The notes under the pieces are model-generated. The model did no database searches. It saw only the letters and a program-made list of their open reading frames with translations, and was not told where the DNA came from. Made by a program: the position numbers and the translations under genes. 64,000 nt of DNA from Eutreptiella sp. 'Long Island Sound 2002' (lineage: Eukaryota; Euglenozoa; Euglenophyceae; Eutreptiales; Eutreptiaceae): the NCBI GenBank assembly GCA_964036045.1, contig OZ038381.1, forward strand, positions 138,104,306 to 138,168,305, written 5' to 3'. Below are positions 13,601 through 61,112 of this stretch, in pieces (the first letter of the stretch is position 1; each line of letters begins with the position of its first letter).

Positions 13601-13748
13601 AGTCCCCGTCCTTGTCCTCCAGGACTAGGCCAGCGTTGATACATTCTTGTATCTGTCGCTCAATCCCGTTGGCCTGCTCTTTAGGAGCTGGATAGGGTCT
13701 CCTCTGGATCTTGTGACCCACGAACTCGGGTTTCAGCTTGAGGTCCAT
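10629..13748 (-). CDS. pol: Reverse transcriptase, RNase H, integrase and chromodomain (element B)
   Basis: 1,039 codons. RT spans roughly residues 1-240, with MPFGVANAPALFQ and the catalytic HIDDVCLG box. Ty3-type RNase H follows (about 300-490: IILVTEASN, YSTYEQELLAGM, WLCDQEP); the usual first Asp of VTDAS is Glu here. Integrase has an HHCC finger (HESSGH ... CPC, about 590-630), then the core. In the core the second acidic motif (NSDEDVQVRS) and the Glu motif (SDLLCERQ) are present, but the first catalytic Asp appears replaced by Gly (YVGYTEMP). A C-terminal chromodomain (GWRFLTLWEGFGVEEATWEP) would target chromatin. The start shown is the first ATG; the true polyprotein begins upstream. 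Confidence 0.85.
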   Translation of the reverse strand: MDLKLKPEFVGHKIQRRPYPAPKEQANGIERQIQECINAGLVLEDKDGDYPQHCSPCFLVAKPGSTAKRLVVDYGELNKKTLNYSGSIPNMESTLEKIASCRYKTKMDKRSGCWQVDLTLNAQKLLAFITPQGRVFKWKVMPFGVANAPALFQELMNKILPILRRRPKVQELISRGAQMEAHIDDVCLGTNTQEDHLILLGEFFAVCQENHTRLRLEKCEFMQETMQYLGFDVGYGWWTPAASKAKPLMDAKVRHEDPKKGLHDVRSFIGACNFYRRHIKNFTYTSAILTDLIKKSTTWRWGPQEQQAFDELKDKVANAKCFGVPRAQGEIILVTEASNVGGAVTLFQWQALEKEEFDSAISQWGTEGLNRDGTLKHSYPDDKCVLVPLGHWNWKWNQARGNYSTYEQELLAGMLVLSSQARLLGSNPVVWLCDQEPVRTLQKGPPPEKAKLRRWCTYLSQLRLTVHHIQRVKNDCADYISRNNLDALIGARSEVLVKEAFSRMDVHLDLNMTMIHPLDGLQQSEYVKEFGDIYKRLEKCLEPLLVNQDQWKRDKSYLWHEDRIVVPSDRVPALLKWTHESSGHVRADPILRLFKQWFHTTWTDDQLRKTLQRILDKCPCRSYKPGDIRDRGLYSTLPIPHCANSVLYVGYTEMPKFGGYDFALVVTCGLTRFTRVFPCTKHITAEETIKILLEEWFCVYGAPKEINSDEDVQVRSDTGWYKRVLRSLNVQVSTGIPYSHTSDLLCERQSRVLKENVRIWCKTERTRDWVRLLPVISLMMDSQESSATGYSPHDLFLGRPAWFLHAPYPEDTHSSVGEWVQEQQAKVDKAKAMLQRVRERQWNKKNKHRVPATYEEGDWVLVHHSRLPASPRSTSDDPYFGPYKILSVDGHRITVRCSPRLGGTLVCAAQHLKRYYDPEDLCGEEWELNDEEIAVLNLQGAASPMEVEGDLPDMNAEEMAKEGFYLVKSVLRHRYRQGWRFLTLWEGFGVEEATWEPFSAFVLPEGRLNSVLVDYLSQNKLGELLRLAETVACKTKARD

Positions 13749-18767: not shown

Positions 18768-19096
18768 CTCCGCGGGGCTGAGATGGAGGCACACATTAAT
18801 GACTTGAGCCTGGGTACTAATACCCAGGAGGATCACATCCTCCTCCTACAAGACGTTTTCACTGTCTTTCAGGAAAACCATCTCTGCATCAAACTCCAGC
18901 AACGTGAGTTCATGTGTGACGAGATGGAGTATCTAGGTTTTGACGTTGGGTATGGCTGGTGGAAACCAGGTGCATCTAAGATGCAACCCCTGCAGCCTAT
19001 GCAGATACGTGACGCCCCTAAGAAGGGTCTGCAAGACGCCCCGAGTTTCATTGGCGCCTGCAATTTTTACTGGCGCCATATCCAACATTTTACATA
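18768..19096 (+). pseudogene. Element D pol, piece 1 (RT palm to start of connection)
   Basis: Reads MEAHINDLSLGTNTQEDH (the catalytic DD is ND here), YLGFDVGYGWWKPGASK and SFIGACNFYWRHI, matching element B pol residue for residue over most of its length. It stops abruptly at 19,096, where the pogo-like element begins, and continues at 34,487. The 5' part of this pol is missing. Confidence 0.85.
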
Positions 19097-19121
19097 CCGT
19101 GCAGTCGCGGCAGGAAGAATG
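19097..19121 (+). repeat. Left terminal inverted repeat of the pogo-like element
   Basis: Starts CCGTGCAGTCGC directly after TA and ends CAGGAAGAATG, the part shared exactly with the right end. Confidence 0.65.
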
Positions 19122-21199: not shown

Positions 21200-24100
21200 G
21201 GTCCTCCCTACCTGGCTTGGCCTGCACGCCCTCTGGGGGCTGCGTGCCGCGGGGTTGGTGGGGGGCCGTCCCCTTGGGGGAATGGCCTGCCACTGCTGTG
21301 AGGGGCGTCTGGTTTCAGGCGCCGTCCCGCCCCCGACCGCCCGTCCTCTGGGGCGGGCAGCCGGGGTACCGCGACCCGTGTGTTCCGGGTGCGGTCGGTG
21401 TGGGCGTGGGGACCCAGCACCGGTTCAACAGCGTGCGCCCTTGCGGGCCGGCGTTGCTCGCTGTGGGGGTGGCGGAAGGGCGTCCCCGGGGGGGGTGCCT
21501 TCCACCGCTGTGAGGGGCCTCTGAGATCAGGCGCTCCCCCTCCCCCAACTGGCCGCCCACTGGGCGGGCTGTTGGGATCCGCCACCAACGTGCTGTGGGC
21601 GCGGGTGTGTGGGTGTGGTGGCCCAACACTGTCCCCTTGGCTTGCATGCCCTGTGGGGGCTGCGTGCCGCGGGGGTGGTGGGGGGCCGTCCCCGGGGGGG
21701 GTGGCCTGCCACCGTTGTGAGGGGTGTCTGGTGTCAGGCGCTGTCCCTCCCCCGGCCGCCTGTCCTCTGGGGCGGGCAGCCGGGGTTCCGCGACCCGTGT
21801 GTCCCGGGTGCGGTCGATGCGAGGGTGGGGACCCAGCACCGGCTGCACAGCGTGCGCCCTTGCGGGCCGGCGTTGCTCGCTGTGGGGGTGGCGGAAGGGT
21901 GTCCCCGGGGGGGGGGTGCTTTCCACCGTTGTGAGGGGCGTCTGAGGTCAGGCGCTCTCCCTCCCCCGACTGCCCGCCCACTGGGCGGGCTGTCGGGGTC
22001 CGCCACCCACGTGCTTCGGGCGCGGGTGTGTGGGGGTGGGGGCCCAGCAGAGTCCCCTTGGGTTGCATGCCCTCTGGGGGCTGCGTGCCGCGGGGGTGGT
22101 GGGGGGGCCGTCCCCGCGGGGGGTGGCCTGCCACCGTTGTGAGGGGCGTCTGGTGTCAGGCGCTGTCCGTCCCCCGGCCGCCCGTCCTCTGGGGCGGGCG
22201 GCCAGGGTTCCGCGACCCGTGTGTCCCAGGTGCGGCTGGTGCGGGCGTGGGACCCAGCACCGGCCCCACAGCGTGCGCCCTTGCGGGCCGGTGTTGCTTG
22301 CTGTGGGGGTGGCGGAAGGGCGTCCCCAGGGGGGATGCCTTCCACCGTTGTGAGGGGCGTCTGTGGTCAGGCGCTCCCCCTCCCCGAACTGCCCGTCCAC
22401 TGGGCGGGCTGTTGGCGTCCGCCACCCGAATGCTGTGGTCGCGGGCGTGTGGGTGTGGGGGCCCAACACTGTCCCCTTGGCCTGCATGCCCTGTGGGGGC
22501 TGCGTGCCGCGGGGGTGGTGGGGGGGCCGTCCCAGGGGGGGGTGGCCTGCCACCGTTGTGAGGGGCGTCTGTCGTCAGGCGCTGTCCCTCTCCCAGTCGC
22601 CCGCTCTCTGGGGCGGGCGGCCGGGGTTCTGTGACCCGTGTGTCCCGAGTGCGGTCGGTGCGGGCGTGGGGACCCAGCACGAGCCCCACAGCGTGCGCCC
22701 TTGCGGGCCGGCGTTGCTCGCTGTGGGGGTGGCGGAAGGGCGTCCCCGGGGGGGTGCCTTCCACCATTGTGAGGGGCGTCTGGTGTCAGGCGCTGTCCCT
22801 CCCCCGGCTGCCTGTCTTCTTGAGTGGGCAGCCAGGGTTCCGCGACCCGTCTGTCCCGGGTGCGGTCGGTGCGGGCCTGGGGACCCAGCACCGGCCCCAC
22901 AGCGTGCGCCCTTGCGGGCCGGCGTTGCTCGCTGTGGGGGTGGCGGAGGGGCGTCCCCGGAGGGGGTGCCTTCCACCATTGTGAGGGGCGTCTGAGGTCA
23001 GGCCCTGTCCCTCCCCCGACTGGCCGCCCACTGGGCGGGCTGTTGGGGTCCGCCACCCACGTGCTGTGGGCGCGGGTGTGTGGGTGTGGGGGCCCAACGC
23101 TGTCCCCTTGGCTTACATGCCCTGTGGGGGCTGCGTGCCGCGGGGCTGGTGGGGGGGCCGTCCCCGGGGGGGGTGGCCTGCCACCGTTGTGAGGGGCGTC
23201 TGGTGTCAGGCGCTGTCCCTCCCCCAGCCGCCTGTCCTCTGGAGCGGGCAGCCAGGGTTCCGCGACCCGGGTGTTCCGGGTGCGGTCGGTGCGGGTGTGG
23301 GGATCCAGCACCGGCCCCACAGCGTGCGCCCTTGCAGCCTGGCGTTGCTGGCTGTGGGGGTGGCGGAAGGGCGTCCCCGGGGGGGGTGCCTTCCACCATT
23401 GTGAGGGGCGTCTGAGGTCAGGCGCTGTCCCTCCCCCGACTGCCCGCCCACTGGGCGGGCTGTTGGTGTCCGCCACCCACGTGCTCTGGGCGCGGGTGTG
23501 TGGGTGTGGGGGCCCAACACTGTCCCCTTGGCCTGCATGCCCTGTGGGGGCTGCGTGCCGCGGGGGTGGTGGAGGGCCGTCCCCGGGGGGGGTGGCCTGC
23601 CACCGTTGTGAGGGGTGTCTGGTGTCAGGCGCTGTCCCTCCCCCGGCCGCCTGTCCTCTGGGGCGGGCAGCCGGGGTTCCGCGACCCGTGTGTCCCGGGT
23701 GCGGTCGATGCGGGGGTGGGGACCCAGCACCGGCCGCACAGCGTGCGCCCTTGCGGGCCGGCGTTGCTCGCTGTGGGGGTGGCGGAAGGGTGTCCCCGGG
23801 GGGGGGTGCTTTCCACTGTTGTGAGGGGCGTCTGAGGTCAGGCGCTCTCCCTCCCCCGACTGCCCGCCCACTGGGCGGGCTGTCGGGGTCCGCCACCCAC
23901 GTGCTTCGGGCGCGGGTGTGTGGGGGTGGGGGCCCAGCAGAGTCCCCTTGGGTTGCATGCCCTCTGGGGGCTGCGTGCCGCGGGGGTGGTGGGGGGGCCG
24001 CCCCGCGGGGGGTGGCCTGCCACCGTTGTGAGGGGCGTCTGGTGTCAGGCGCTGTCCGTCCCCCGGCCGCCCGTCCTCTGGGGCGGGCGGCCAGGGTTCC

Positions 24101-27100
24101 GCGACCCGTGTGTCCCAGGTGCGGCTGGTGCGGGCGTGGGACCCAGCACCGGCCCCACAGCGTGCGCCCTTGCGGGCCGGTGTTGCTTGCTGTGGGGGTG
24201 GCGGAAGGGTGTCCCCAGGGGGGATGCCTTCCACCGTTGTGAGGGGCGTCTGTGGTCAGGCGCTCCCCCTCCCCGAACTGCCCGTCCACTGGGCGGCCTG
24301 TTGGCGTCCGCCACCCGAATGCTGTGGTCGCGGGCGTGTGGGTGTGGGGGCCCAACACTGTCCCCTTGGCCTGCATGCCCTGTGGGGGCTGCGTGCCGCG
24401 GGGGTGGTGGGGGGGCCGTCCCAGGGGGGGGTGGCCTGCCACCGTTGTGAGGGGCGTCTGTCGTCAGGCGCTGTCCCTCTCCCAGTCGCCCGCTCTCTGG
24501 GGCGGGCGGCCGGGGTTCTGTGACCCGTGTGTCCCGAGTGCGGTCGGTGCGGGCGTGGGGACCCAGCACGAGCCCCACAGCGTGCGCCCTTGCGGGCCGG
24601 CGTTGCTCGCTGTGGGGGTGGCGGAAGGGCGTCCCCGGGGGGGTGCCTTCCACCATTGTGAGGGGCGTCTGGTGTCAGGCGCTGTCCCTCCCCCGGCTGC
24701 CTGTCTTCTTGAGTGGGCAGCCAGGGTTCCGCGACCCGTCTGTCCCGGGTGCGGTCGGTGCGGGCCTGGGGACCCAGCACCGGCCCCACAGCGTGCGCCC
24801 TTGCGGGCCGGCGTTGCTCGCTGTGGGGGTGGCGGAGGGGCGTCCCCGGAGGGGGTGCCTTCCACCATTGTGAGGGGCGTCTGAGGTCAGGCCCTGTCCC
24901 TCCCCCGACTGGCCGCCCACTGGGCGGGCTGTTGGGGTCCGCCACCCACGTGCTGTGGGCGCGGGTGTGTGGGTGTGGGGGCCCAACGCTGTCCCCTTGG
25001 CTTACATGCCCTGTGGGGGCTGCGTGCCGCGGGGCTGGTGGGGGGGCCGTCCCCGGGGGGGGTGGCCTGCCACCGTTGTGAGGGGCGTCTGGTGTCAGGC
25101 GCTGTCCCTCCCCCAGCCGCCTGTCCTCTGGAGCGGGCAGCCAGGGTTCCGCGACCCGGGTGTTCCGGGTGCGGTCGGTGCGGGTGTGGGGATCCAGCAC
25201 CGGCCCCACAGCGTGCGCCCTTGCAGCCTGGCGTTGCTGGCTGTGGGGGTGGCGGAAGGGCGTCCCCGGGGGGGGTGCCTTCCACCATTGTGAGGGGCGT
25301 CTGAGGTCAGGCGCTGTCCCTCCCCCGACTGCCCGCCCACTGGGCGGGCTGTTGGTGTCCGCCACCCACGTGCTCTGGGCGCGGGTGTGTGGGTGTGGGG
25401 GCCCAACACTGTCCCCTTGGCCTGCATGCCCTGTGGGGGCTGCGTGCCGCGGGGGTGGTGGAGGGCCGTCCCCGGGGGGGGTGGCCTGCCACTGTTGTGA
25501 GGGGTGTCTGGTGTCAGGCGCTGTCCCTCCCCCGGCCGCCTGTCCTCTGGGGCGGGCAGCCGGGGTTCCGCGACCCGTGTGTCCCGGGTGCGGTCGATGC
25601 GGGGGTGGGGACCCAGCACCGGCCGCACAGCGTGCGCCCTTGCGGGCCGGCGTTGCTCGCTGTGGGGGTGGCGGAAGGGTGTCCCCGGGGGGGGATGCTT
25701 TCCACTGTTGTGAGGGGCGTCTGAGGTCAGGTGCTCTCCCTCCCCCGACTGCCCGCCCACTGGGCGGGCTGTCGGGGTCCGCCACCCACGTGCTTCGGGC
25801 GCGGGTGTGTGGCTGTGGGGGCCCAGCAGAGTCCCGTTGGGTTGCATGCCCTCTGGGGGCTGCGTGCCGCGGGGGTGGTGGGGGGGCCGTCCCCGCGGGG
25901 GGTGGCCTGCCACCGTTGTGAGGGGCGTCTGGTGTCAGGCGCTGTCCGTCCTCTGGCCGCCCGTCCTCTGGGGCGGGCGGCCAGGGTTCCGCGACCCGTG
26001 TGTCCCAGGTGCGGCTGGTGCGGGCGTGGGACCCAGCACCGGCCCCACAGCGTGCGCCCTTGCGGGCCGGTGTTGCTCGCTGTGGGGGTGGCGGAAGGGC
26101 GTCCCCAGGGGGGATGCCTTCCACCGTTGTGAGGGGCGTCTGTGGTCAGGCGCTCCCCCTCCCCGAACTGCCCGTCCACTGGGCGGGCTGTTGGCGTCCG
26201 CCACCCGAATGCTGTGGTCGCGGGCGTGTGGGTGTGGGGGCCCAACACTGTCCCCTTGGCCTGCATGCCCTGTGGGGGCTGCGTGCCGCGGGGGTGGTGG
26301 GGGGGCCGTCCCAGGGGGGGGTGGCCTGCCACCGTTGTGAGGGGCGTCTGTCGTCAGGCGCTGTCCCTCTCCCAGTCGCCCGCTCTCTGGGGCGGGCGGC
26401 CGGGGTTCTGCGACCCGTGTGTCCCGAGTGCGGTCGGTGCGGGCGTGGGGACCCAGCACGAGCCCCACAGCGTGCGCCCTTGCGGGCCGGCGTTGCTCGC
26501 TGTGGGGGTGGCGGAAGGGCGTCCCCGGGGGGGGTGCCTTCCACCATTGTGAGGGGCGTCTGGTGTCAGGCGCTGTCCCTCCCCCGGCTGCCTGTCTTCT
26601 TGAGTGGGCAGCCAGGGTTCCGCGACCCGTGTGTCCCGGGTGCGGTCGGTGCGGGCGTGGGGACCCAGCACCGGCCCCACAGCGTGCGCCCTTGCGGGCC
26701 GGCGTTGCTCGCTGTGGGGGTGGCGGAGGGGCGTCCCCGGGGGGGGTGCCTTCCACCATTGTGAGGGGCGTCTGGTGTCAGGCGCTGTCCCTCCCCCAGC
26801 CGCCTGTCCTCTGGAGCGGGCAGCCAGGGTTCCGCGACCCGGGTGTTCCGGGTGCGGTCGGTGCGGGTGTGGGGATCCAGCACCGGCCCCACAGCGTGCG
26901 CCCCCGCGGCCTGGCGCTGCTGGCTGCGGGGGTGGCGGAAGGGCGTCCCCGGGGGGGGTGCCTTCCACCATTGTGAGGGGCGTCTGAGGTCAGGCGCTGT
27001 CCCTCCCCCGACTGCCCGCCCACTGGGCGGGCTGTTGGTGTCCGCCACCCACGTGCTCTGGGCGCGGGTGTGTGGGTGTGGGGGCCCAACACTGTCCCCT

Positions 27101-30100
27101 TGGCCTGCATGACCTGTGGGGGCTGCGTGCCGCGGGGGTGGTGGGGGGCCGTTCTGGGGGGGGTGGCCTGCCACTGTTGTGCGGGGCCTCTGGTGTCAGG
27201 CGCTGTCCCTCCCCCGGCCGCCCGTCCTCTGGAGCGGGCAGCCGGGGTTCCGCGACCCGTGTGTCCCAGGTGCAGTCGGTGCGGGCGTGGGGACCCAACA
27301 CCGGCCCCACAGCGTGCACCCTTGCGGGCCGGCGTTGCTCGCTGTGGGGGTGGCGGAAGGGCGTCCCCGGGGGGGGTGCCTTCCACCATTGTGAGGGGCG
27401 TCTGAGGTCAGGCGCTGTCCCTCCCCCGACTGCCCGCCCACTGGGCGGGCTGTTGGGGTCCGCCACCTACGTGCTGTGGGCGCGGATGTGTGGCTGTGGG
27501 GGCCCAACACTGTCCCCTTGACCTGCATGCCCTGTGGGGGCTGCGTGCCGCCGGGGTGGTTGGGGGCCGTCCCCAGGGGGGGCCGGCCTGCCATTCTTGC
27601 GAGGGGCGTCTGGTGTCAGGCGCCGTCCCTCCCCCGGCCGCCCGTCCTCTGGAGCGGGCAGCCGGGGCTCCGCGACCCGCGGGTCCCTGGTGCAGTCGGT
27701 GCGGGCGTGGGGACCTAGCACCGGCGCCACAGCCTGCGCCCTTGCGGGCTGGCTTTGCTCGCTGTGGGGGTGGCGGAAGGGGGTCCCCGGGGGGGGTGCC
27801 TTCCACCATTGTGAGGGGCGTCTGGTGTCAGGCGCTGTCCCTCCCTCGGCCGCCCGTCCTCTGGAGCGGGCAGCCAATGTTCCGCGACCCGTTTGTCCCC
27901 GGTGCAGTCGGTGCGGGCGTGGGGACCCAGCACCGGCGCCACAGCGTGCGCCCTTGCGGGCCGGTGTTGCTCGCTGTGGGGGTGGCGGAAGGGCGTCCCC
28001 GGGGGGGGGTGCCTTCCACCATTTTGAGGGGCGTCTGAGGTCAGGCCCTGTCCCTCCCCCGACTGGCCGCCCACTGGGCGGGCTGTTGGGGTCCGCCACC
28101 CACGTGCTGTGGGCGCGGGTGTGTGGGTGTGGGGGCCCAACACTGTCCCCTTGGCTTGCATGCCCTGTGGGGGCTGCGTGCCGCGGGGCTGGTGGGGGGG
28201 CCGTCCCAGGGGGGGCTGGCCTGCCACCGTTGTGAGGGGCGTCAGGTGTCAGGTGCTGTCCCTCCCCTGGCCACCCGTCCTCTGGAGCGGGCAGCCAGGG
28301 TTCCGCGACCCGTGTGTCCCGGGTGCGGTCGGTGCGGGGGTGGGGACCCAGCACCGGCCCCACAGCGTGCGCCCTTGCGGGCCGGCGTTGCTCGCTGTGG
28401 GGGTGGCGGAAGGGCGTCCCTGGGGGGGGTGCCTTCCACCATTGTGAGGGGCGTCTGAGGTCAGGCGCTGTCCCTCCCCCGACTGGCCGCCCACTGGGCG
28501 GGCTGTTGGGGTCCGCCACCCACGTCCTCTCGGCGCGGGTGTGCGGGTGTGGGGGCCCAACGCTGTCCCCTTGGCCTGGATGCCCTGTGGGGGCTGCGTG
28601 CCGCTGGGGTGGAGGGGGGCCGTCCCCGGGGGCGGTGGCCCGCCACCGTTGTGAGGGGCGTCTGGTGTCAGGCGCTGTCTCTCCCCCGGCCGCCCGTCCT
28701 CTGTAGCGGGCAGCCAGTGTTCCGCGACCCGTTTGTCCCCGGTGCGGTCGGTGTGGGCGTGGGGACCCAGCACCTGCCCCACAGCGTGCGCCCTTGCGGG
28801 CCGGCGTTGCTCGCTGTGAAGGTGGCGGAAGGGCGTCCCCGGGGGGGGTGCCTTCCACCATTGTGAGGGGCGTCTGAGGTCAGGCGCTGTCCCTCCCCCG
28901 ACTGCCCGCACACTGGGCGGGCTGTCGGGGTCCGCTCCCCACGTGCTGTGGGCGCGGGTGTGTGGTTGTGGGGGTCCAACACTGTCCCCTTGGCCTGCAT
29001 GCCCTGTGGGGGCTGCGTGCCGCGGGGCTGGTGGGGGGCCGTCCCCGGGGGGGTTGTTCTGCCACCGTTGTGAGGGGCGTCTGGTGTCAGGTGCTGTCCC
29101 TCCCCCGGCCGCCAGTCCTCTGGAGCGGGCAGCCAGTGTTCCGCGACCCGTGGGTCCCGGGTGCGGTCGGTGCGGGCGTGGGGACCCAGCACCAGCCTGA
29201 CAGCGTGCGCCCTTGCGGGCTGGCGTTGCTCGCTGTGGGCGTGGCGGAAGTGCGTCCCCGGTGGTGTGCCTTCCACCATTATGAGGGGCGTCTGAGGTCA
29301 GGCGCTGTCCCTCCCCCGACTGCCCGCCCACTGGGCGGGCTGTTGGGGTCCGCCACCCACATGCCGTGGGCGCGGGTGTGTAGGTGTGGGACCCCAACAC
29401 TGTCCCCTCCGCCTGCATGCCCCGTGGAGGCTGCGTGCCGCGGGGGTGGTGGGGTGCCGTTCCCCGGGGGGGTGGCCTGCCACCGTTGTGAGGGGCGTCT
29501 GGTGTCAGGCGCTGTCCCTCTCCCGGCTGCCCGTCCTCTGGGGCGGGCAGCCGGGGTTCCGCTACCTGTGTGTCCCGGGTGCGGTCGGTGCGGGCGTGGG
29601 GATCCAGCACCGGCCCCACAGCGTGCGCCCTTGCGGGCCGGCGTTGCTCGCTGTGGGGGTGGCGGAAGGGCGTCCCCGGGGGGGGGTGCCTTCCACCATT
29701 GTGAGGGGCGTCTGAGGTCAGGCGCTGTCCCTCCCCCAACTGCCCGCCCACTGGGCGGGCTGTTGGGGTCCGCCATCCACATGCTGTGGGCGCGGGTGTG
29801 TGGGTGTGGGGGCCCATCACTGTCCCCTTGGCCTGGATGCCCTGTGGGGGCTGCGTGCCGCGGGGGTGGTGGGAGGCCGTCCCCGGGGGGGGTGGCCTGC
29901 CACCGTTGCAAGGGGCGTCTGGTGTCAGGCGCTGTCCCTTCCCCGGCCGCCCGTCCTCTGGAGCGGGCAGCCGGGGCTCCGTGACCCGTGTGTCCCGGGT
30001 GCGGTCGGTGCGGGCGTGGGACCCAGCACCGGCCCCAAAGCGTGCGCCCTTGCGGGCCGGTGTTGCTCGCTGTGGGGGTGGCGGAAGGGCGTCCCCGGGG

Positions 30101-30236
30101 GGGGTGCCTTCCGCCGTTGTGAGGGGCGTCTGTGGTCAGGCGCTCCCCCTCCCCCGACTGCCCGCCCTCTGGACGTGCTATTGGGGTCCGTCATCCACAT
30201 GCCGTGGGCGCGTGTGTGTGGGTGTGGGGTCCTAAT
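21200..30236. repeat. GC-rich satellite array, about 210-bp monomers in alternating A/B dimers
   Basis: The landmark GAGGGGCGTCTG recurs about every 210 bp for 9 kb. Two monomer types alternate: A (contains ACCCGTGTGTCCCGGGTGCG) and B (contains GGGGGCTGCGTGCCGCGGGG), giving a roughly 420-bp dimer. Monomers share long G-runs after GTCCCC. About 43 monomers in all; edges are diverged. Long frames without stops occur on both strands because 210 is a multiple of three and AT is scarce. They are not genes. Confidence 0.95.
21715..26770. repeat. Higher-order repeat of about 1,890 bp (nine monomers)
   Basis: Sequences at 22,575 and 24,464 (offset 1,889) are almost identical over more than 1 kb. The same holds for 23,418 and 25,307, and for 24,256 and 26,146 (offset 1,890). 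Two full units and a partial third are present. Flanking monomers outside are more diverged, so the unit was recently duplicated as a block. Confidence 0.85.
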
Positions 30237-32584: not shown

Positions 32585-33314
32585 CAGCCAGGAAGCGGAT
32601 CAGTTGTATTGTGAAGCCAAGACCAGGTAAATATCCCCTTTTAGAAAAACAACTGTACACTGATATCCGCACGAAAAGGGTTAAGGGTTTGAGGATGACT
32701 ACGAAATGGATCCGGATACACATGAAAAAGCTGATCAGTAAGCAGCATGGTGACGATGCAGCAAAGGATTGTAAAATCCACCCTTTCCTGGAGGTTCAAA
32801 TTTTGCCGCAGGTCGGGCATTTCCTTGCGTCGCAAAACTAACAGTAGGAAGCCTTTGTCTGACCGCCATCCAAAAATCAAGAGCCGGCACGCCCGCCTCG
32901 TGAAACAATTGGCCAGGGGTAAGGAGTTGTGCCCCGTTTTTGGTCGATGGCCCCTCAGCCACAGGTATGATGTGGACCAAGTGCCCTGCTATTTTGGAAG
33001 TAAATACCCTGTCACACTGCACTGTCAGGAGGATAGTCCACGGGTTAGGTTGCCCCCCAACAGTGGAACTGATGTTAAGAGGGACTGCAGCCTGCAGCTT
33101 TGCTGCAGATTCATTCCCAAAGGGGGCGTGCAGCCAAAGGCAGGGATTGTGTTCAAGGGCACTAGGCAAAGAATCCCTAAAGTAGAGACTGATCAGTATG
33201 ACAACAGAGTTGTAGTGTTTTGGCAGAAAAAGGCATGGGTCAATGAAGAAATTGCATGTGAGTGGGTCCTGCGGGTTTTGGAGCTGTTCTTGCAGTCCAT
33301 CAACCAACGAGAGG
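32585..33314 (+). repeat. 731-bp direct duplication, right copy
   Basis: Partner of 19,635-20,365. Starts CAGCCAGGAAGCG at the edge of unrelated T-rich DNA. Confidence 0.85.
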
Positions 33315-34192
33315 AGGTTTGCCTGTTTTCCGACAACTTGTCAGCACAGACCACTGCACGATTCAGGCGCCTCCTGCGGCGTAAGTGCAACACAAACCAG
33401 CACTTAGAACCAGCGGAATGCACTGATGAGATTGCTGTGACTGATGCAGGGGTGGGAAGACTGTGTAAGAATCACATGCACAGGGCATATGATGAGTGGT
33501 TGGAAGAGGAGCATAACAATGATCGTATAGTGAATGGACAGGTCCCTGTTTCAGAAAAAAAGGTTTTGTTGACAACGTGGTTGGGCAATGCTTCGGACCA
33601 CGTGTGTTCAAAGATGGACTTTGACAGATTGGCCCTGAAAACTGGTTCAGGCTTGGCAAAAGACCTCTCCAAGCAAAAGGACATTAAGCTCCAAGGTTTG
33701 GAGGAGGAGTACACTTTCAGCTTGCCTGATGGTGGTGATCTTCCCTCTGAAAGTGTTTCGGAGGAGGAAGATGAAGAGGAGGAAGATGAAGAGGAAGATG
33801 ATGATGCAAATGAAGAGGAAGGCGGTGATGATGAGAATGAGGTGGATGAGGTTGATTCGGATGGGGCATCGGATGGTTCGGAGGTGCTCGGGCTCCTGAA
33901 TGTTGACCAACAAGGGCACTTCATGAAGCCCGCATGGGCTGCGATCCTCCCCCAACCCCCCGAGGACATGGCAGTGCACAACTTGAAAAAGCTCAAGTTG
34001 TGCATTGCATTGCATTACGACCGCGAAATGGGGTGGGAGATTTGCCGTTTTTCAAAATTTTACCACACAGGCACCCACGAGGGTGAATATGTCCTGAATT
34101 TTGAAGGGGTGTTGTGGTACCAAGCATTGCCTCCCTTGAAGGAATATGGGCCGAAGAGGAAATGGGTGTTGTTGCAAGGCAATCCCCCTTGA
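32585..34192 (+). pseudogene. Pogo-like transposase, middle and 3' part
   Basis: From 32,747 a 481-codon frame carries the DDE core: YDVDQVPCYFGSKYP, then LFSDNLSAQTT with the second Asp, and DEIAVTDAGVGRLCKNH near the third acidic position. An acidic tail (33,760-33,860) and a C-terminal segment end in TGA at 34,190. DNA-binding sequence (KYPLLEKQLYTDIRTKRVKG) lies just upstream in another frame, so a frameshift near 32,785 separates the two. The psq domain is missing here; it is on the left copy. Catalyses TA-targeted cut and paste in intact relatives. Confidence 0.8.
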
Positions 34193-53633: not shown

Positions 53634-53643
53634 ACCCAATGGC

Positions 53644-53674
53644 TTAGGCGGCCGAAACAGGTACGCTTTTGTAC
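53644..53674 (+). repeat. Left inverted repeat of the 6.3-kb element
   Basis: Begins TTAGGCGGC and ends CAGGTACGCTTTTGTAC. Two differences from the right end. Confidence 0.9.
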
Positions 53675-53912
53675 TGCTCTTTTTAAAAAAAAAACACCGA
53701 GAAATGATGTGGGCTTTTTCAGTGAATTACCCTGTTCTTGTGACCCTGATTTTTCATGCTTGTTTTTTCAGTTAAAAAAGCTACCTTTTTCGTGTCGTTG
53801 CAACAAACGGGGCTCCTTTGTACTAGTGCGTACGATGGTATCTCGATATGGAAGGACAACCCACTGTGTGACGCACCTCGTGTCGGTTATTACGCCTTTT
53901 TTTCTGCAACAG

Positions 53913-53930
53913 ATTGCGAGGCCTCGCAAT
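53913..53930. repeat. Palindromic site 1
   Basis: ATTGCGAGGCCTCGCAAT, perfect 18-bp palindrome, non-coding. Confidence 0.9.
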
Positions 53931-54017
53931 GCAAGGATTCGATTTGATTTGTTTCACCAGAAGCGAATGCATGGAAAATTGGCATCAGGGTAATTACGAC
54001 AAATAACATTCTTTTTT

Positions 54018-54037
54018 GAATGCGAGGCCTCGCATTC
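54018..54037. repeat. Palindromic site 2
   Basis: GAATGCGAGGCCTCGCATTC, perfect 20-bp palindrome. Outer arms differ from site 1 yet stay symmetric. Confidence 0.9.
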
Positions 54038-54080
54038 CATTTCAAAATATTCGCAAAAGGTATAGTTTCGGGAATCGAAA

Positions 54081-54094
54081 TGCGAGGCCTCGCA
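54081..54094. repeat. Palindromic site 3
   Basis: TGCGAGGCCTCGCA, perfect 14-bp core; outer arms not symmetric. Confidence 0.85.
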
Positions 54095-54496
54095 ATAATG
54101 GAACAGAAAACAATAAAATGGACATATCCACCAACTACACAGCATGTGCATTCCCTTGATGGGCGCTGCTGCATGGGTGCCCATACACGGCCCGCCGGCA
54201 TCTCCAGTTTTCATACTGCGGTCACCGCTGGCTTCACTGCCCAACAGCGATGGTGGCGGTCTGCAACGGGGTACCGCAAGTGTGATAAACAAGAGAAATG
54301 TGGGACTAGCTGACCATTACCAGCAACCAAAAATGCGCACGCGCGGCGGATTTGCGCGCAAAGATCGATATGCGTGTGTCGTGTGTGCAGCGCTGTGCTG
54401 GCAAGAAATTTTATTTAACTGTAGCATTAAAGGAACCTGTTTTTCGTGGAATCGTATAATAAAATGCACATTTTTGATTCTTTGAGATGATTGTAT

Positions 54497-56464
54497 ATGC
54501 CACGTAACATTGCGCATGGAGCGAAGAGGGAGCTGGAACGGACTGTCAGGCGATTGCGAGCCTTCTGTGCAACAGAACACGGGTATACCACTGCTGAATC
54601 ACTATGGGCTGCCGTTGAAACGAACAAGAGTGGAGCTGTTTTTTTTTGACTTTGCGCGCTTGCTGCGACTGAACCGGAAAACACGGCACTCACTACTGAG
54701 GTTGAAAAGCAGACCAGAGAGCCGAGCCGCCAATCACTTCAAGGAGGAGTTCTTCAACTTATACAAAATTTTCCGCTATGCACACCCCAGCACCAGGACG
54801 AGCACGCCCCGGGTTTTGCCTCCATGGGTCGGCAGAACAGGCGTCGGTTGCGCAGAACAGGACTGCTGCGGCTCCGCGAGGAAACCATGAAAGAACGCTC
54901 TGCGGGAAAGATGCTTGAGACATGGCGATGGATGGAGAACCGGCAGGTTTGCGTCCGGATCGACAATTGTTCTATTAAGCAGTATGGAACGCATCCAACG
55001 ATCCAGGATCAGTCGCAAAACTGCACAGCCCTTTGCGTCGTTGAGATTCCGTGCAGGTTGCCGTATTTCAGAGGACACCCAACCATAGATGTGCTCATCG
55101 GCAGCATCGGCAGTGTGGCTGCAGCGCTTGTCAGAATGAAACGGAGCTTTCATGGGATCGTGACAGACCTGGATCTGCTTGCGGACAGACCTGCAGCAAT
55201 ACCGAGCATCAGAGTGCCGCTTGACATCGTGCGAGATCCACTACCAAATCCTGGTTGGAAGCCGCTGCTGCTGAGTACGCATCAGGTATCCTCGTACAAG
55301 GGCCTGGTCGAGGTGTTGGACTACATTGCATCGCTGTCAAACCACACGCAGCCCATTGTGCCCATCCTCGTTGATGAGAACATACACAAAAGATGCCTGA
55401 AGTTGCTGTACTCAGACAGAACGCAGCGGTGGAACTGGTACCAAAAACTGAAGAGGACTCCTGTCTTGTACGGCTGCTGGCACCCCTATAAATACCTTGT
55501 GACCAACGTGTGGCGCCGCTTTCATTCGCTGTTTGTGTACTTCCGCTTTGGCCGCTTAGGAGTGGGAAAACCAGTAGGGTCGTACCCGAAGCTCAGAGTC
55601 ATGGAGAGAACTATCGCCGGCATCCTCAAGTGTGCGCCGCATTTCTTGCGGCAGTTGCAAAGGAAAGCGAACAGGTTACAGGCTGTTGCGGATCACGGTA
55701 GGACGGCGATCGATTGACTGAATAGTGAAGTATGTAAAGCAATGGTGAACCTTCTGCAGAACTGGTGTCCCCTTGTCCTCTACTGTGGATTACTCGTGAG
55801 ACAATGCAACTGGTCTGGACGGCAACCTGGAACCGCCATCGACGCCCAAAATGTTTCGGGACTCGTGTTCGTGCTTTTAATTGAGCTCGGGAGGGCTGCA
55901 GCTGATCCTGTTGTGTATGTGTGGACCATCGGTGTTGCGTTGATGCATTGGCAGACCTTCAACAGTGGCCTGCCAGGATTGTGCTATGGTGAGGAGTTTG
56001 GCGAAGTCATGCTCAGCAAACTTGGGTCCATGAAGGATGGACACACTTGGGCTGTCAGACCCAGTGACGTGGAAGATTTGTTTGTCCAGATCTGCCCTGC
56101 AAGAATTAACAGACGCCTGCTGGTTAGTGGTTTGTCCTCCGATATTGAAACCGAGATACGACAGCGCTTGCACTCGTATGTTGTCGACGACCGCCTGAGA
56201 ATTCGGTACTGTCCTTGGCAGTCGGGTACCTTGACCAGGGAGAGGCACTGGAAGGCTGATCGAGTTCTTCCGTCCGACCCTTACAGCGAGCCGGACATGG
56301 ACACATACAGAACTTTGTTGACCGACGTTTGGCGTACATTTCTGCGGCAGCCCCGGAATTTCTCAGCTGCCGTAATACGATTGATGGACAACAAGGTTCC
56401 TCTGCAGTCTGATGCGCAGCGCACGAACATTCTGGACACAATCTGGGCCTTTACCGATGCATAA
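54497..56464 (+). CDS. Transposase-like protein, DUF6589/KDZ-like (inferred)
   Basis: From ATG 54,824 a frame carries VCVRIDNCSIKQYGTHPTI, then LVDENIHKRCLKLLYSD and VLYGCWHPYKYLVTNVWRRF. It ends at TGA 55,715. The next frame (55,742-56,464) is in the same register and has CGLLVRQCNWSG and LSSDIETEIRQRLHS. A 42-base GT-AG intron (55,698-55,739) would remove the TGA and join them. An Asp-Asn pair, a later Asp-Glu, then W-H before a basic helix recalls the RNase-H-fold core of DUF6589/KDZ transposases. Coding upstream to ATG 54,497 needs a frame change at a T-run near 54,645. Assignment is by pattern, not search. Confidence 0.5.
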
Positions 56465-56544
56465 TATCGGTTTTAGGTTGATTCCCAACTCTGTTGTTGT
56501 TGTTGCGCGCACACCGGTGCTTTTGCTCACTACTGCGTGTTCGG

Positions 56545-56562
56545 AATGCGAGCCCTCACAAT
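56545..56562. repeat. Palindromic site 4 (imperfect)
   Basis: AATGCGAGCCCTCACAAT, two or three changes from symmetry, in the spacer between the two genes. Confidence 0.65.
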
Positions 56563-56607
56563 CGTCTTTTCAAAAAGTGCGTTTTTGACTATATGTTGTT
56601 ACCTTAA

Positions 56608-56621
56608 TGCGAGGCCTCGCA
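56608..56621. repeat. Palindromic site 5
   Basis: TGCGAGGCCTCGCA, perfect core, between the two genes. Confidence 0.85.
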
Positions 56622-56661
56622 ATACGAAGTAGGTAATTGCAGACAAATACCTATATTGTCG

Positions 56662-56679
56662 ATTGCGAGCCCTAGCAAT
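56662..56679. repeat. Palindromic site 6 (imperfect core, perfect arms)
   Basis: ATTGCGAGCCCTAGCAAT: arms TCGATTGC and GCAATCGA pair, centre altered. About 50 bp before the second gene. Confidence 0.65.
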
Positions 56680-56729
56680 CGAAGAATAAATATGTACATT
56701 TTTCTCCCTTTTTACAGGCCTATTTCAAA

Positions 56730-59406
56730 ATGGCAGAGAGGTTGGCGCCAACAAAAGCGGGCACAGCATCACCAGAGGCGTCACAAGTACCATCCACGCA
56801 GGAAACGGTGCCAGAGGAGTTCTTGAGGTTCTACAAGAAGCCTTCCCAGGTGGAGGTTGACGTTGGGAGCCTTTCGATCGACAAGAAGAAGAAGTACGGC
56901 CAGATCCGGAAGTATCAACAGAAGCAAGTGGACGAGGTTATGAGAAGTCTTACGGCAATCCCTCCCGAGGAGCCCGTGACCGTGACTGCATGGCAATCAC
57001 CAGGTACGTAACCCGGTCGCACCGTTGCTGTTTCATGTTCATCCTCTGAAACCCCTGTTTTCATCTCCAGCCGACGAGTGGATCGTCATTGCAAAGCAGC
57101 ACTGCGTCTGTGCGCTGAAAGCACTGCGAGACCAACGTCTTGAGCAGGGCCTCGACCCACCGCAGTGGATGCAAGTGGTGAAGGTCAACCTGTTGAAAAC
57201 GGAAACCAGTTGGGCTACACGAGTAGCAATCGCTGATCGGAAGCAAGCCATTGATCTGGACATCTCCGCCGTGCCACCGTCGGAAGCAGCTGACAACCTC
57301 CTTATGCATTTGCGAGATTCGCCGGCTGGGCCTGACGAGACTGCAATGGAACACATTTACCAAACCATCCCGAAAGCCGCGAGCGGAAGTGCTTGGATTC
57401 CACCACAAGGTTCCGATGATGAACTCCAAGTATGTTCCATTGTCGAATGCGAGGCCTCGAAATCGAAAAAAATGGCTACTCATCGTCCTCATGTACAGAG
57501 TTATTCAGTCAAGGCGTTTGGACCGTTCCTCACTTGGGTGTACCATGCGGAGGACGCAGCGGTGAGGTCTCTGGATAATTTCGAGAAGATGGACATGCCG
57601 GTGGCGATGAACCAGCTGAAGTTCTTGCAGGGTCTGTACGAGCCATCACTCCTACAACGGGTCGCCGCCGGCATGTCGAGACAAAAAACGAACATCAAGG
57701 AAATCCAGGACCGGGCCTCTGCCTACCAGAAGCAGCAGTGGATCAATTGGCATTGGGGAGCCGCGCCGGACAGCGTTATGCATCCGACCCGCAGTATGTT
57801 CCCCTCACAAGCAGGTAGGCAAACACGCAAACAAGGTAAACGCAACCTTTCACATGTTTACAGAGGCAAGTCCGGCAGAGAAGGTACCGTTGTACGACTG
57901 GGATGTCCTTCCGTTTCGAATCCCTTTGGCGGCTTGGCAGTGGAAACCTGAGGCTCCGTCGCCGAAATGGGAAACGCTCAGCAAGGCGCGATTCTGGACG
58001 GCGATGGGAAATACTCATCCAAAGCATGGGTCATCAATTCACCTTGATCGCCTGCGTGCTCGACTGGCATCGCCCTTGACCGAAGTCAAGTCCACGGAGT
58101 CCGGAAAAGTGGACGTGGTGAACATTGAGGTCACTGGAAAGGTGGCCAAAATGCTGTGCGCCCCCTACAAAGATCCGCAAGATCCCCTGAATTTTTTGGA
58201 GGCTCTGGACACCGACATGATTATTCTGAATGCGAATCTGGCAGACGGTGCACATCCTGTGAGTCCTGTTGTGATGGCCAAGTTGATTGACAACCCTGAA
58301 ACTGTGCTTGTGATCTACGGCGAGGTGGAGACTGTTTGGGACGCCCTGCAAACAGTTTTGGAGACGTCTGGAGGTGCGGAGAACAATTACTTGTATGAAA
58401 AAGTGCAAGTGTGTTACTGGCTACCTGGCGCAGGCAAGACAGAGAAAGGCGGAATTCAAGTTAAAGCACTTGTTCTGCTGGCCGGTGTAAAGATCAAGAA
58501 AAAGGTATGTACAACGCTTTCGCATTGCCAGGCCTGGCAATCCCTTTGCCATCTCGCTACTCCTCACTACAGATCCCACCATACATCGGTTTGGGTTGCC
58601 GCGAACCTGATGAACCAGGGTTCATGCCCCTTATGCTTTATACGTGGATGGCAACGCTGATGTGGACCAAAGACCGCACAAAGAACGTCATGATCTTCGA
58701 TCGCGATGTGCACATGGCGGCGAAAGTGGCAGCGTTGGATGATCCTCCGCAAGTTTGTTCTCTGCAATTGACCAAACAGAAGTGTTCGGACTGGGCACGG
58801 AGCTACCATCACGAGGTGACGCAGCGCGTGCAGGCGGGAATTGACCAGACCAGGTTGGCGCAGTGCGAGCTCTGGATCCAATTCGGCATGCCAATGTGGG
58901 TTGAGGACGAGCACGTGGGGTATACGCGTCTGGAGGTGTCCGCAGCAGAGGAACCAAGTCAGCATGCCCATGCAGAAGGTGGAGACGAAGACGTGGATGA
59001 GCCTTGGGACGATGACGATGAACCGCTGCTGACAGGATCTGATCAGCGATCTCCTTGGAAGTCCACGCAGGTTCGGGCGTTCCAGGCTGGCGAGGCAGAT
59101 GAGGACGAGCTGAGGGCGAGCCAGATGCCGAAGCCGAAAAAGCCAAAGACCCAGGCGGCAGCTGTGCAGAAGCAGAGGACACTGATGCAGCCCCAGGGAG
59201 TGAAGAGGACGCTGAGCCTTTCCGGATCCGGGAACAGTAGTGGGCTCGACAGCGCGGAGCAAGATGTTGGCAGCGGTATAGAAGAAGAAGAAGAAGCCCT
59301 AAAGGGCGTTGCAGTCCTATTTTGTATGATATGTTGTCGCGCATTGCGAGGCCTCACATTCCAGATCAGGCAATTCGCCATTTCAGCTCTGTTTTCAGAA
59401 GCGTAA
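56730..59406 (+). CDS. Unrecognised 807-aa protein, five proposed exons
   Basis: Exons 56,730-57,003, 57,071-57,429, 57,499-57,814, 57,864-58,504 and 58,573-59,406 add to 2,424 bases and keep one frame. The introns (67, 69, 49 and 68 bp) start GTACGT, GTATGT, GTAGGC, GTATGT and end CAG. Seen: Lys-rich N-terminal part (SIDKKKKYGQIRKYQQKQVD), a middle with VPLYDWDVLPFRIPLAAWQW, ordered IPPYIGLGCREPDEPG, then an acidic and Lys/Pro-rich tail. No catalytic motif or known family; PGAGKT is not a full Walker A. Intron 2 has no stop and is a multiple of three, so retention would also be in frame. Likely a second element protein. Confidence 0.55.
57446..57463. repeat. Palindromic site 7, in intron 2
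   Basis: AATGCGAGGCCTCGAAAT, one change from symmetry, inside the proposed intron 57,430-57,498. Confidence 0.75.
58524..58541. repeat. Palindromic site 8, in intron 4, covarying form
   Basis: ATTGCCAGGCCTGGCAAT, perfect 18-bp palindrome. It differs from site 1 by a G-to-C on the left and the matching C-to-G on the right, so symmetry is kept. Confidence 0.9.
59343..59360. repeat. Palindromic site 9 (imperfect)
   Basis: ATTGCGAGGCCTCACATT, at the 3' end of the last frame; suggests that coding may end or an intron may begin before it. Confidence 0.65.
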
Positions 59407-59450
59407 TCTGCAGATGACGATTATACCGACCCTAAGGCAACAGTCGGTAT

Positions 59451-59464
59451 TGCGAGGCCTCGCA
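59451..59464. repeat. Palindromic site 10
   Basis: TGCGAGGCCTCGCA, perfect core, 3' non-coding. Confidence 0.85.
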
Positions 59465-59582
59465 TTTCGAGAGCCTCACGTCTTGACGCACAGAATGTAC
59501 TGATACTCTGCATTCTGTTTTTGCTTGTTTCTGAGTGCTCTGAACCTGTGTGTAATTGCAGTGAATTACGTTGTTGCATGTC

Positions 59583-59608
59583 TCGTATTGCGAGGCCTCG
59601 CAATACGA
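59583..59608. repeat. Palindromic site 11, longest (26 bp)
   Basis: Perfect over 26 bp: arms TCGTATTG and CAATACGA around the GCGAGGCCTCGC-type centre. Confidence 0.9.
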
Positions 59609-59916
59609 ATAGGAAAATGGTGTCATTTTGCAGCATTTTGGAAACCAGAGGCGTAAAAAGTGAATTTTTAAGGTAGGAGAAAAAAGCATGCAGAGGAGAA
59701 CAACAAAGAAGCAAGGTTTTCTAGTTCGAGAACCCCCAAAATGTGCTGCATTTCAGAGAAAAGTGGGTAAAATGGCAAAAATTGTGAGAGCTTTTTGGGA
59801 GGAAAATCATGCATTTTTGTGGGTAATTGGGCGAAAAAACTGAGTAGTGAAATTTTGTGGTAGAAAAAAGTAGGTAAATCGGGCAAATTACCCGTACCAA
59901 ATTTGCAGAGACCCCG

Positions 59917-59947
59917 GTACAAAAGCGTACCTGCTTCCGCCGCCTAA
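59917..59947 (-). repeat. Right inverted repeat of the 6.3-kb element
   Basis: On the minus strand begins TTAGGCGGC and ends CAGGTACGCTTTTGTAC. Confidence 0.9.
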
Positions 59948-59948
59948 G

Positions 59949-60542: not shown

Positions 60543-61112
60543 ATGCTGTTTTGTGCGCTGGGTGGCAGGTCAGCTAATCAGGTTAGGTCTGGTGATCGGC
60601 TGCTTTACAAGAAACTCAGTTGCAATGCGTCAGCCCCTGTCAGAGGGTCTGCATCTGCGGCTCGGTTGGACCTGTGTTCTGCTAAGTCTTTAGACCTAAT
60701 CTCAGGACAGATTGTGGTAGTCCCAACAGATTTGGCTATAACAGTGCCTCAGGGTACATATGGTCGTATTGCACCTCGCAGTGGACTGGGGTGCAAGGGG
60801 ATTGTCATAATGGGTGGAGTTGTGGATCCAGATTACAGGGGCAATGTGGGGGTGATGATGGGAAACGTTGGATCCTCCACCTTGTCTGTGAATGTGGGTG
60901 ATCGCATTGCAAAGCTTGTATGTGAGTGCATCGCCATGCCAGTCCCCATTGAAGTTGCTGAATTGAAGTCCACTGAGCGAGGTGGGGCTGGTTTTGGCAG
61001 TACAGGGGTCCAAGCCGTCACGATGAAGGAATTAAATGAGCCCATTTTCAACTATGTGGCAGGTCCGGAACTAGACCAGGGTGTTCTGTCCATGTTCTTT
61101 TTTCGTGGATAA
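60543..61112 (+). CDS. dUTPase domain of element C
   Basis: All five trimeric dUTPase motifs are present in order: ARLDLCSA (1), GRIAPRSGL (2), GVVDPDYRGNVGV (3), NVGDRIAKLV (4) and RGGAGFGSTG (5). The enzyme removes dUTP to keep uracil out of newly made DNA, useful to a reverse-transcribing element. About 190 codons, usual core length. The ATG shown lies upstream of the conserved part; it may be made as part of a polyprotein. It follows a protease fragment, a neighbourhood also known from some retroviruses. Confidence 0.9.
   Translation: MLFCALGGRSANQVRSGDRLLYKKLSCNASAPVRGSASAARLDLCSAKSLDLISGQIVVVPTDLAITVPQGTYGRIAPRSGLGCKGIVIMGGVVDPDYRGNVGVMMGNVGSSTLSVNVGDRIAKLVCECIAMPVPIEVAELKSTERGGAGFGSTGVQAVTMKELNEPIFNYVAGPELDQGVLSMFFFRG

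Follow-up and report, generated by a model that had tools for sequence, protein, structure and literature searches.

What kind of element is contained in a 6.3-kb interval of the euglenophyte Eutreptiella sp. 'Long Island Sound 2002' that carries inverted ends, two genes and a series of short palindromes? The interval lies in a 64-kb stretch of contig OZ038381.1 (64,000 nucleotides, hereafter the window), for which an initial annotation had proposed a possible new class of large DNA transposon, carrying two genes together with palindromes confined to it. In outline, though not as to a new class, this proposal is borne out by other copies in the genome: the interval is a member of a real, multi-copy, two-gene DNA transposon family, which has decayed in the window. 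The element spans window positions 53643-59948 (6,306 bases) and represents a damaged copy.

Ends and copies of the element

The element is bounded by inverted arms of 32 nt each, 94% complementary. Inverted repeats of 31 bp, matching at 29 of 31 positions, had been described earlier; the inverted ends are real but the arms measure 32 nt, which extends the element by one base in both directions.

53643..53674, plus strand: left terminal inverted repeat, 32 bp, starting CTTAGGCGGCC; 30 of the 39 other scored copies begin matching exactly at window base 53643
59917..59948, minus strand: right terminal inverted repeat, 32 bp, placed by arm complementarity and by the right boundaries of other copies

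Screening of the genome (2,280,300,865 bases) with the terminal 32-mer returned 713 matches at up to 3 mismatches and none with the reversed control; other copies with the same ends, whose lack had been named as an outcome that would count against a transposon, are therefore found in number. A 601-base query taken from the left end gave 1,578 candidates, 40 of which were scored, the window copy among them, and the other 39 were 90-96% identical to the window. Twenty other copies were taken as 10-kb stretches for comparison. The match reached both ends in 11 of these stretches, and in the other 9 no match to the 3' terminus was found within the stretch. The termini of other copies read CTTAGG..CCTAAG, and the same 6.3-kb order was found again in copies with direct 5-bp duplications. 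A second subfamily, represented by L029 (C3:22896978-22903524), is 82% identical over 6.4 kb and carries the variant terminal inverted repeat (TIR) GTACACTTTTGTAC, the same variant being present at many further listed places among the genome end matches. A 3.07-kb derivative, L017, has the same ends and its own target duplication. With paired inverted ends at constant positions in many copies, the element resembles in its general kind a cut-and-paste TIR DNA transposon.

One 4.35-kb end pair was encountered twice, with the same flanks in opposite orientation and 12 Mb apart (L030/L031, C3:484013-488360; L032/L033, C3:12614953-12619301). Only the ends of these two were read, and they may correspond to an inverted duplication or to an assembly artefact.

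Target duplication and uninterrupted sites

Flanking sequences were read in 19 insertion rows, corresponding to the 11 two-ended copies, the window copy and 7 further cases. Three rows were dropped as repeats: L032/L033, the inverted duplicate of L030/L031; L038/L039, with the flanks of L026; and L040/L041, in the place of L014. Identical 5-bp flanks were present in 13 of the 16 independent insertions, L019 being counted with one changed terminal base. When the joined flanks of 12 insertions were compared with available sequence, two clear uninterrupted sites were recovered. L015 lies within an array of tandem units, and when its flanks are joined with a single TTGTT they continue through neighbouring units at 85-90% identity; L028 lies inside a reverse-transcriptase gene, an uninterrupted relative of which, 76% identical, is located at window 18783-19097. 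L026 also matched itself weakly over 122 bp, and L028 matched window 12897-13214 at 67%; neither was counted as an uninterrupted site. These flanks and the two uninterrupted sites, obtained by the alignment of copies and empty sites that had been suggested as a check, indicate that the duplication is 5 bp and not TA. The TA just inside the ends, first regarded as a possible target duplication, is thus ruled out by the 5-bp flanks of other copies, as is TTA, and the window copy itself has no duplication.

Two genes maintained by selection

The two genes are both on the plus strand, with the following coordinates in the window.

54497..56464, plus strand: gene 1, putative transposase, broken in the window; intact 657-aa single-exon frame elsewhere (P0033, locus L015)
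56730..57003, plus strand: gene 2 exon 1, from the window gene model and other copies
57071..57429, plus strand: gene 2 exon 2, same basis
57499..57814, plus strand: gene 2 exon 3, same basis
57864..58504, plus strand: gene 2 exon 4, same basis
58573..59299, plus strand: gene 2 exon 5, its end inferred from other copies (about 772 codons overall); the window frame continues to 807 aa

Two spliced genes had been predicted, which holds for gene 2, with its five exons, but not for gene 1. The latter is a single open frame without intron in L015; in the window it leaves the frame in a T run near 54638-54646, returns to it downstream and meets a stop at 55715-55717. An intron at 55698-55739 was rejected, all 13 other aligned copies reading through without the window's stop. 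In gene 2, the window introns are of the GT-AG type, 49-69 nt long, and are kept in most other copies. Five exons do give the 807-aa reading reported initially, but its C-terminus is read in a shifted frame; the corresponding exons of L015 and L009 run into a stop near codon 772, and each of these copies has an earlier stop as well.

A genome search with gene 1, in which 67 of 7,992 candidates were scored, gave at least 72 matches, some being pieces of one copy; two of them are full-length and stop-free. The ratio of nonsynonymous to synonymous substitution rates (dN/dS) for gene 1 between the subfamilies (L015 versus L029) was 0.13, a value of 1.46 for L009 versus L029 being set aside because L009 is out of frame there and has stops. 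Gene 2 gave 0.21 for L015 versus L029 and 0.22 for L009 versus L029, the shifted frames of the latter pair giving 1.26 and 1.66. Variants were also compared among 21 aligned copies, partial ones included. The amino-acid-changing fraction was 0.49 in shared variants versus 0.81 in singletons for gene 1 (from 54824 on; p 0.016) and 0.52 versus 0.80 for gene 2 (p 0.016); in the two wrong frames of gene 2 the difference was not significant. Both genes are under purifying selection between the two subfamilies.

Gene 1 encodes a putative DDE-type transposase

Relatives of both proteins were looked for in a protein database by scoring the 8000 candidates sharing most words, and relatives outside these can be missed. 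Among the candidates scored, gene 1 had 32 relatives by the first query and 68 by a two-sequence profile, and gene 2 had one, 73% identical over 57%. All of the 68 except P0072 are 49-93% identical, most of them on long contigs, which suggests that they come from the same or a close genome. The only distant relatives of gene 1 among these candidates are P0031, from the first query, and P0072, from the profile, 31-32% identical, on contigs of 1,983 and 1,349 bases. No relatives were confirmed in IMG/VR (46 stretches fitting two short patterns) or in GTDB genomes (21 stretches fitting one pattern). Database protein P0026 joins a reverse transcriptase to part of gene 1, and is probably one element inserted into another.

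Alignment of seven gene 1 proteins revealed 17 invariant columns, among them D295, H331, P332 and K334. D158 is kept in P0031, both E501 and E502 are kept in P0072, and P0007 keeps E501 only. D158, D295 and E501 (or E502), kept in the distant relatives wherever these cover them, are candidates for a catalytic triad, and we infer from this pattern that gene 1 encodes a DDE-type transposase. Searches of gene 1 against Pfam, NCBIfam and sequences of the Protein Data Bank (PDB) gave nothing above chance (best PDB match E 0.96, unrelated); in Pfam, P0033 had no match at E up to 10 and P0031 none better than E 0.15.

Palindromes are selected sites

The palindromes have the form TGCGAG-NN-CTCGCA, in which the central two bases vary by site, GC or CC being usual. 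At up to 2 mismatches, TGCGAGGCCTCGCA has 11 matches in the window, all within the element, for 0.30 expected. A stricter pattern was found 136 times in 110,321 bp of element sequence and not once in 153,679 bp of other sequence from the window and 20 stretches. The family had been described as confined to the same 6.3 kb, which these counts support. The eleven sites, all pattern matches kept in copies, are without strand.

53913..53930: palindrome 1, left subterminal
54019..54036: palindrome 2, left subterminal
54079..54096: palindrome 3, left subterminal
56545..56562: palindrome 4, between genes
56606..56623: palindrome 5, between genes
56662..56679: palindrome 6, between genes
57446..57463: palindrome 7, gene 2 intron 2
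58524..58541: palindrome 8, gene 2 intron 4
59343..59360: palindrome 9, right subterminal
59449..59466: palindrome 10, right subterminal
59587..59604: palindrome 11, right subterminal

Three palindromes thus lie in each end region, three between the genes and two in introns. None of the 11 falls within the exons, which cover 4,288 of the 6,306 bases (3.6e-6 under random placement). Each position is kept in 14 to 21 of 21 copies, among those covering it. Between L015 and L029 the palindromes, whose positions are kept, are 97% identical, versus 73% for introns and 78% for other non-coding DNA; within the subfamily, their diversity is 0.044 versus 0.068 in random non-coding windows, only 6 of 5000 such windows being as low. 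The palindromes are therefore functional sites kept by selection. This arrangement, with two of the conserved sites inside introns that have themselves diverged, is unusual and clearly selected. The shape of the palindromes looks like that of a site for a symmetric dimer. A literature search with the terminal and palindrome strings found no transposon paper among the titles and abstract openings of the 20 papers listed out of 48.

Proposed mechanism

We consider it likely that the window contains a decayed copy of a cut-and-paste DNA transposon which would rely on a DDE-type transposase, encoded by gene 1, and on a palindrome-binding dimer, for which the gene 2 product is the best, if less certain, candidate. 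The gene 1 transposase would pair both ends, cut the DNA at them and join them to target strands at points separated by 5 bp. The palindromes TGCGAGNNCTCGCA are putative binding sites of a symmetric-dimer protein, most likely, though with less certainty, the gene 2 product. At both subterminal clusters this product may help the ends to meet, and its binding between the genes may regulate expression. TnpD and TnpA of En/Spm divide the labour in the way proposed here for genes 1 and 2. If this is true, one palindrome site links transposition with its regulation.

Several observations weigh against this scheme. No DDE or RNase H profile in Pfam or NCBIfam matched gene 1, and the candidate acidic residues rest on two distant partial relatives, P0031 stopping short of the E and P0072 starting beyond the first D; P0007 has K at position 502. 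Searches with gene 2 of Pfam, NCBIfam and PDB sequences gave nothing above chance (best PDB match E 0.76, unrelated), so that it has no recognised domain in the Pfam and NCBIfam searches. Complete readings of gene 2 come from only four copies: L009, L015 and L029, which have internal stops, and the window copy, with its shifted C-terminus; in the L029 alignment introns 2-4 end in AG and intron 1 does not. No copy with both genes intact was found. Of 191 site-copies, 138 have both palindrome arms exact, so that the arms too are subject to decay. Finally, three of the 16 insertions have no duplication: the window copy, flanked by AATGG and TTGAA, L036/L037, and L034/L035 (G000:C1:13374993-13381016). 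The two flanks of the last are inverted copies of each other, as may be expected if the site had folded back or been wrongly assembled.

Relation to known superfamilies

The initial annotation could name no superfamily combining these features, a statement that survived the tests run here. The CMCT clade (EnSpm, Mirage, Chapaev, Transib and Plavaka) is described as having C(2)C and H(3-4)H motifs between the second D and the E, 5'-CA..TG-3' termini in most cases and a target duplication of 2-5 bp (PMC12730594). The 5-bp duplication falls within this range. The ends, CTTAGG..CCTAAG, do not have the CA..TG form, and neither motif is present in P0033 or P0072. P0031 contains HPYKH, an H-x3-H, at 346 after the second D; its only CxxC is at residue 27, and no C(2)C follows the second D. 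Profile searches for DUF6589 (PF20231) and KDZ (PF18758), which had been advised as a check, gave no match in P0033, in P0031 or in the whole genome, the same genome searches being silent in 14 control genomes too, so that their sensitivity is unproven. A literature search on DUF6589 found no paper. The order D-N ... V/G-D ... H-x-Y-K in gene 1 is one that we take to be loosely like that of fungal DUF6589 proteins, a likeness that none of the analyses supports.

A close parallel in organisation is En/Spm (CACTA), a TIR element with a transposase (TnpD), a second protein (TnpA) and repeated short motifs in both subterminal regions. In contrast to En/Spm, the present element has CTTAGG instead of CACTA and a 5-bp instead of a 3-bp duplication, no sequence similarity to it was found, the motifs of the CMCT clade are missing, and its own repeated motifs are two-fold palindromes that also occur between genes and in introns. 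Transib shares the 5-bp duplication. Its clade covers 2-5 bp (PMC12730594). The element lacks the CA..TG termini, both motifs of the clade and a Pfam match, and has a second gene. KDZ (Kyakuja-Dileera-Zisupton) and DUF6589 proteins are likewise long transposase-like proteins of eukaryotic elements, but KDZ duplications are of 7-8 bp (PMC12730594) and no profile matched in the genome. PIF/Harbinger elements also combine a transposase with a second protein, but their duplications are of 0, 2 or 3 bp (PMC12730594) and no profile match was obtained. A duplication of 5 bp is shared with hAT5 (PMC12730594), and one of 4 or 5 bp is given for Ginger2 (PMC10045372), whereas gene 1 has no hAT or integrase-core Pfam match; in particular, no hAT transposase or dimerisation domain was found in P0033 (Pfam, E up to 10).

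Alternative explanations

That the element belongs to a known superfamily (the DUF6589 group, KDZ, the CACTA/Transib clade or hAT5) but has diverged so far that only a fold or profile-profile comparison would reveal it is, to our mind, a nearly even possibility. The length of its duplication would suit both the CMCT range and the 5-bp hAT families that exist (PMC12730594), and P0031 has its one H-x3-H (HPYKH) after the second D; the loose likeness of gene 1 to fungal DUF6589 proteins would point the same way. The Pfam results for P0033 and P0031, the missing cysteine and histidine motifs in P0033 and P0072, the lack of a C(2)C after the second D of P0031 and the termini CTTAG..CTAAG point away from it, as does the silence of the DUF6589 and KDZ profiles, with the limit on sensitivity given above. 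We advance only tentatively, as something rather short of probable, the view that the element founds a new superfamily of eukaryotic DNA transposons. Such a superfamily would be characterised by CTTAGG termini and a duplication of 5 bp, by a transposase family and a second protein that are both undescribed, the latter under purifying selection, and by palindromes at both ends, between genes and in introns that would bind the element's own second protein, transposition and regulation being joined in one site. Neither protein matched any family described in the libraries that were searched. A new superfamily would be plausible.

A different reading concerns the palindromes, which might act in RNA or be the target of a host protein, serving expression or silencing instead of transposition, with another role for gene 2. 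Three of them just upstream of gene 2 and two in its introns would suit regulation, and gene 2 has no recognised DNA-binding domain; on the other hand, the three-and-three layout near both ends suits end synapsis as in En/Spm, and the motif does not occur in the 153,679 bp of sequence around the copies and is therefore not a common host site in that sample. We regard this reading as rather doubtful, though of some weight. The idea of a chance pairing of ends in a stretch that holds unrelated host genes, or several nested elements, can practically be dismissed. The window copy without target duplication and the other repeats around it might have invited such an idea, which is refuted by the same 6.3-kb order in copies with direct 5-bp duplications and in the second subfamily. 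For the proposed cut-and-paste transposon, the two stop-free gene 1 copies, together with defined ends, a target duplication and a candidate binding site, make it possible to test directly whether the ends and the palindromes are bound and what the second protein does. Tools have come from new transposase families, and so have host genes.

Surroundings of the window copy

Of 8 contig ends read, 3 (L048, L051 and L053) carry CCCTAA repeats, and one consists entirely of N. In the window, a GC-rich tandem array of 21 copies of a 420-bp unit occupies 21285-30229, and a 481-aa open frame with a DDE_1 transposase domain (E 9.7e-8) lies at 32747-34192. Directly to the right of the element, at 60543-61112, a dUTPase frame (E 2.9e-35) is possibly part of a retroelement. 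The minus strand at 10629-13748 encodes a 1039-aa frame with reverse transcriptase, RNase H and weak integrase-core matches, which looks like a Ty3-type retroelement.

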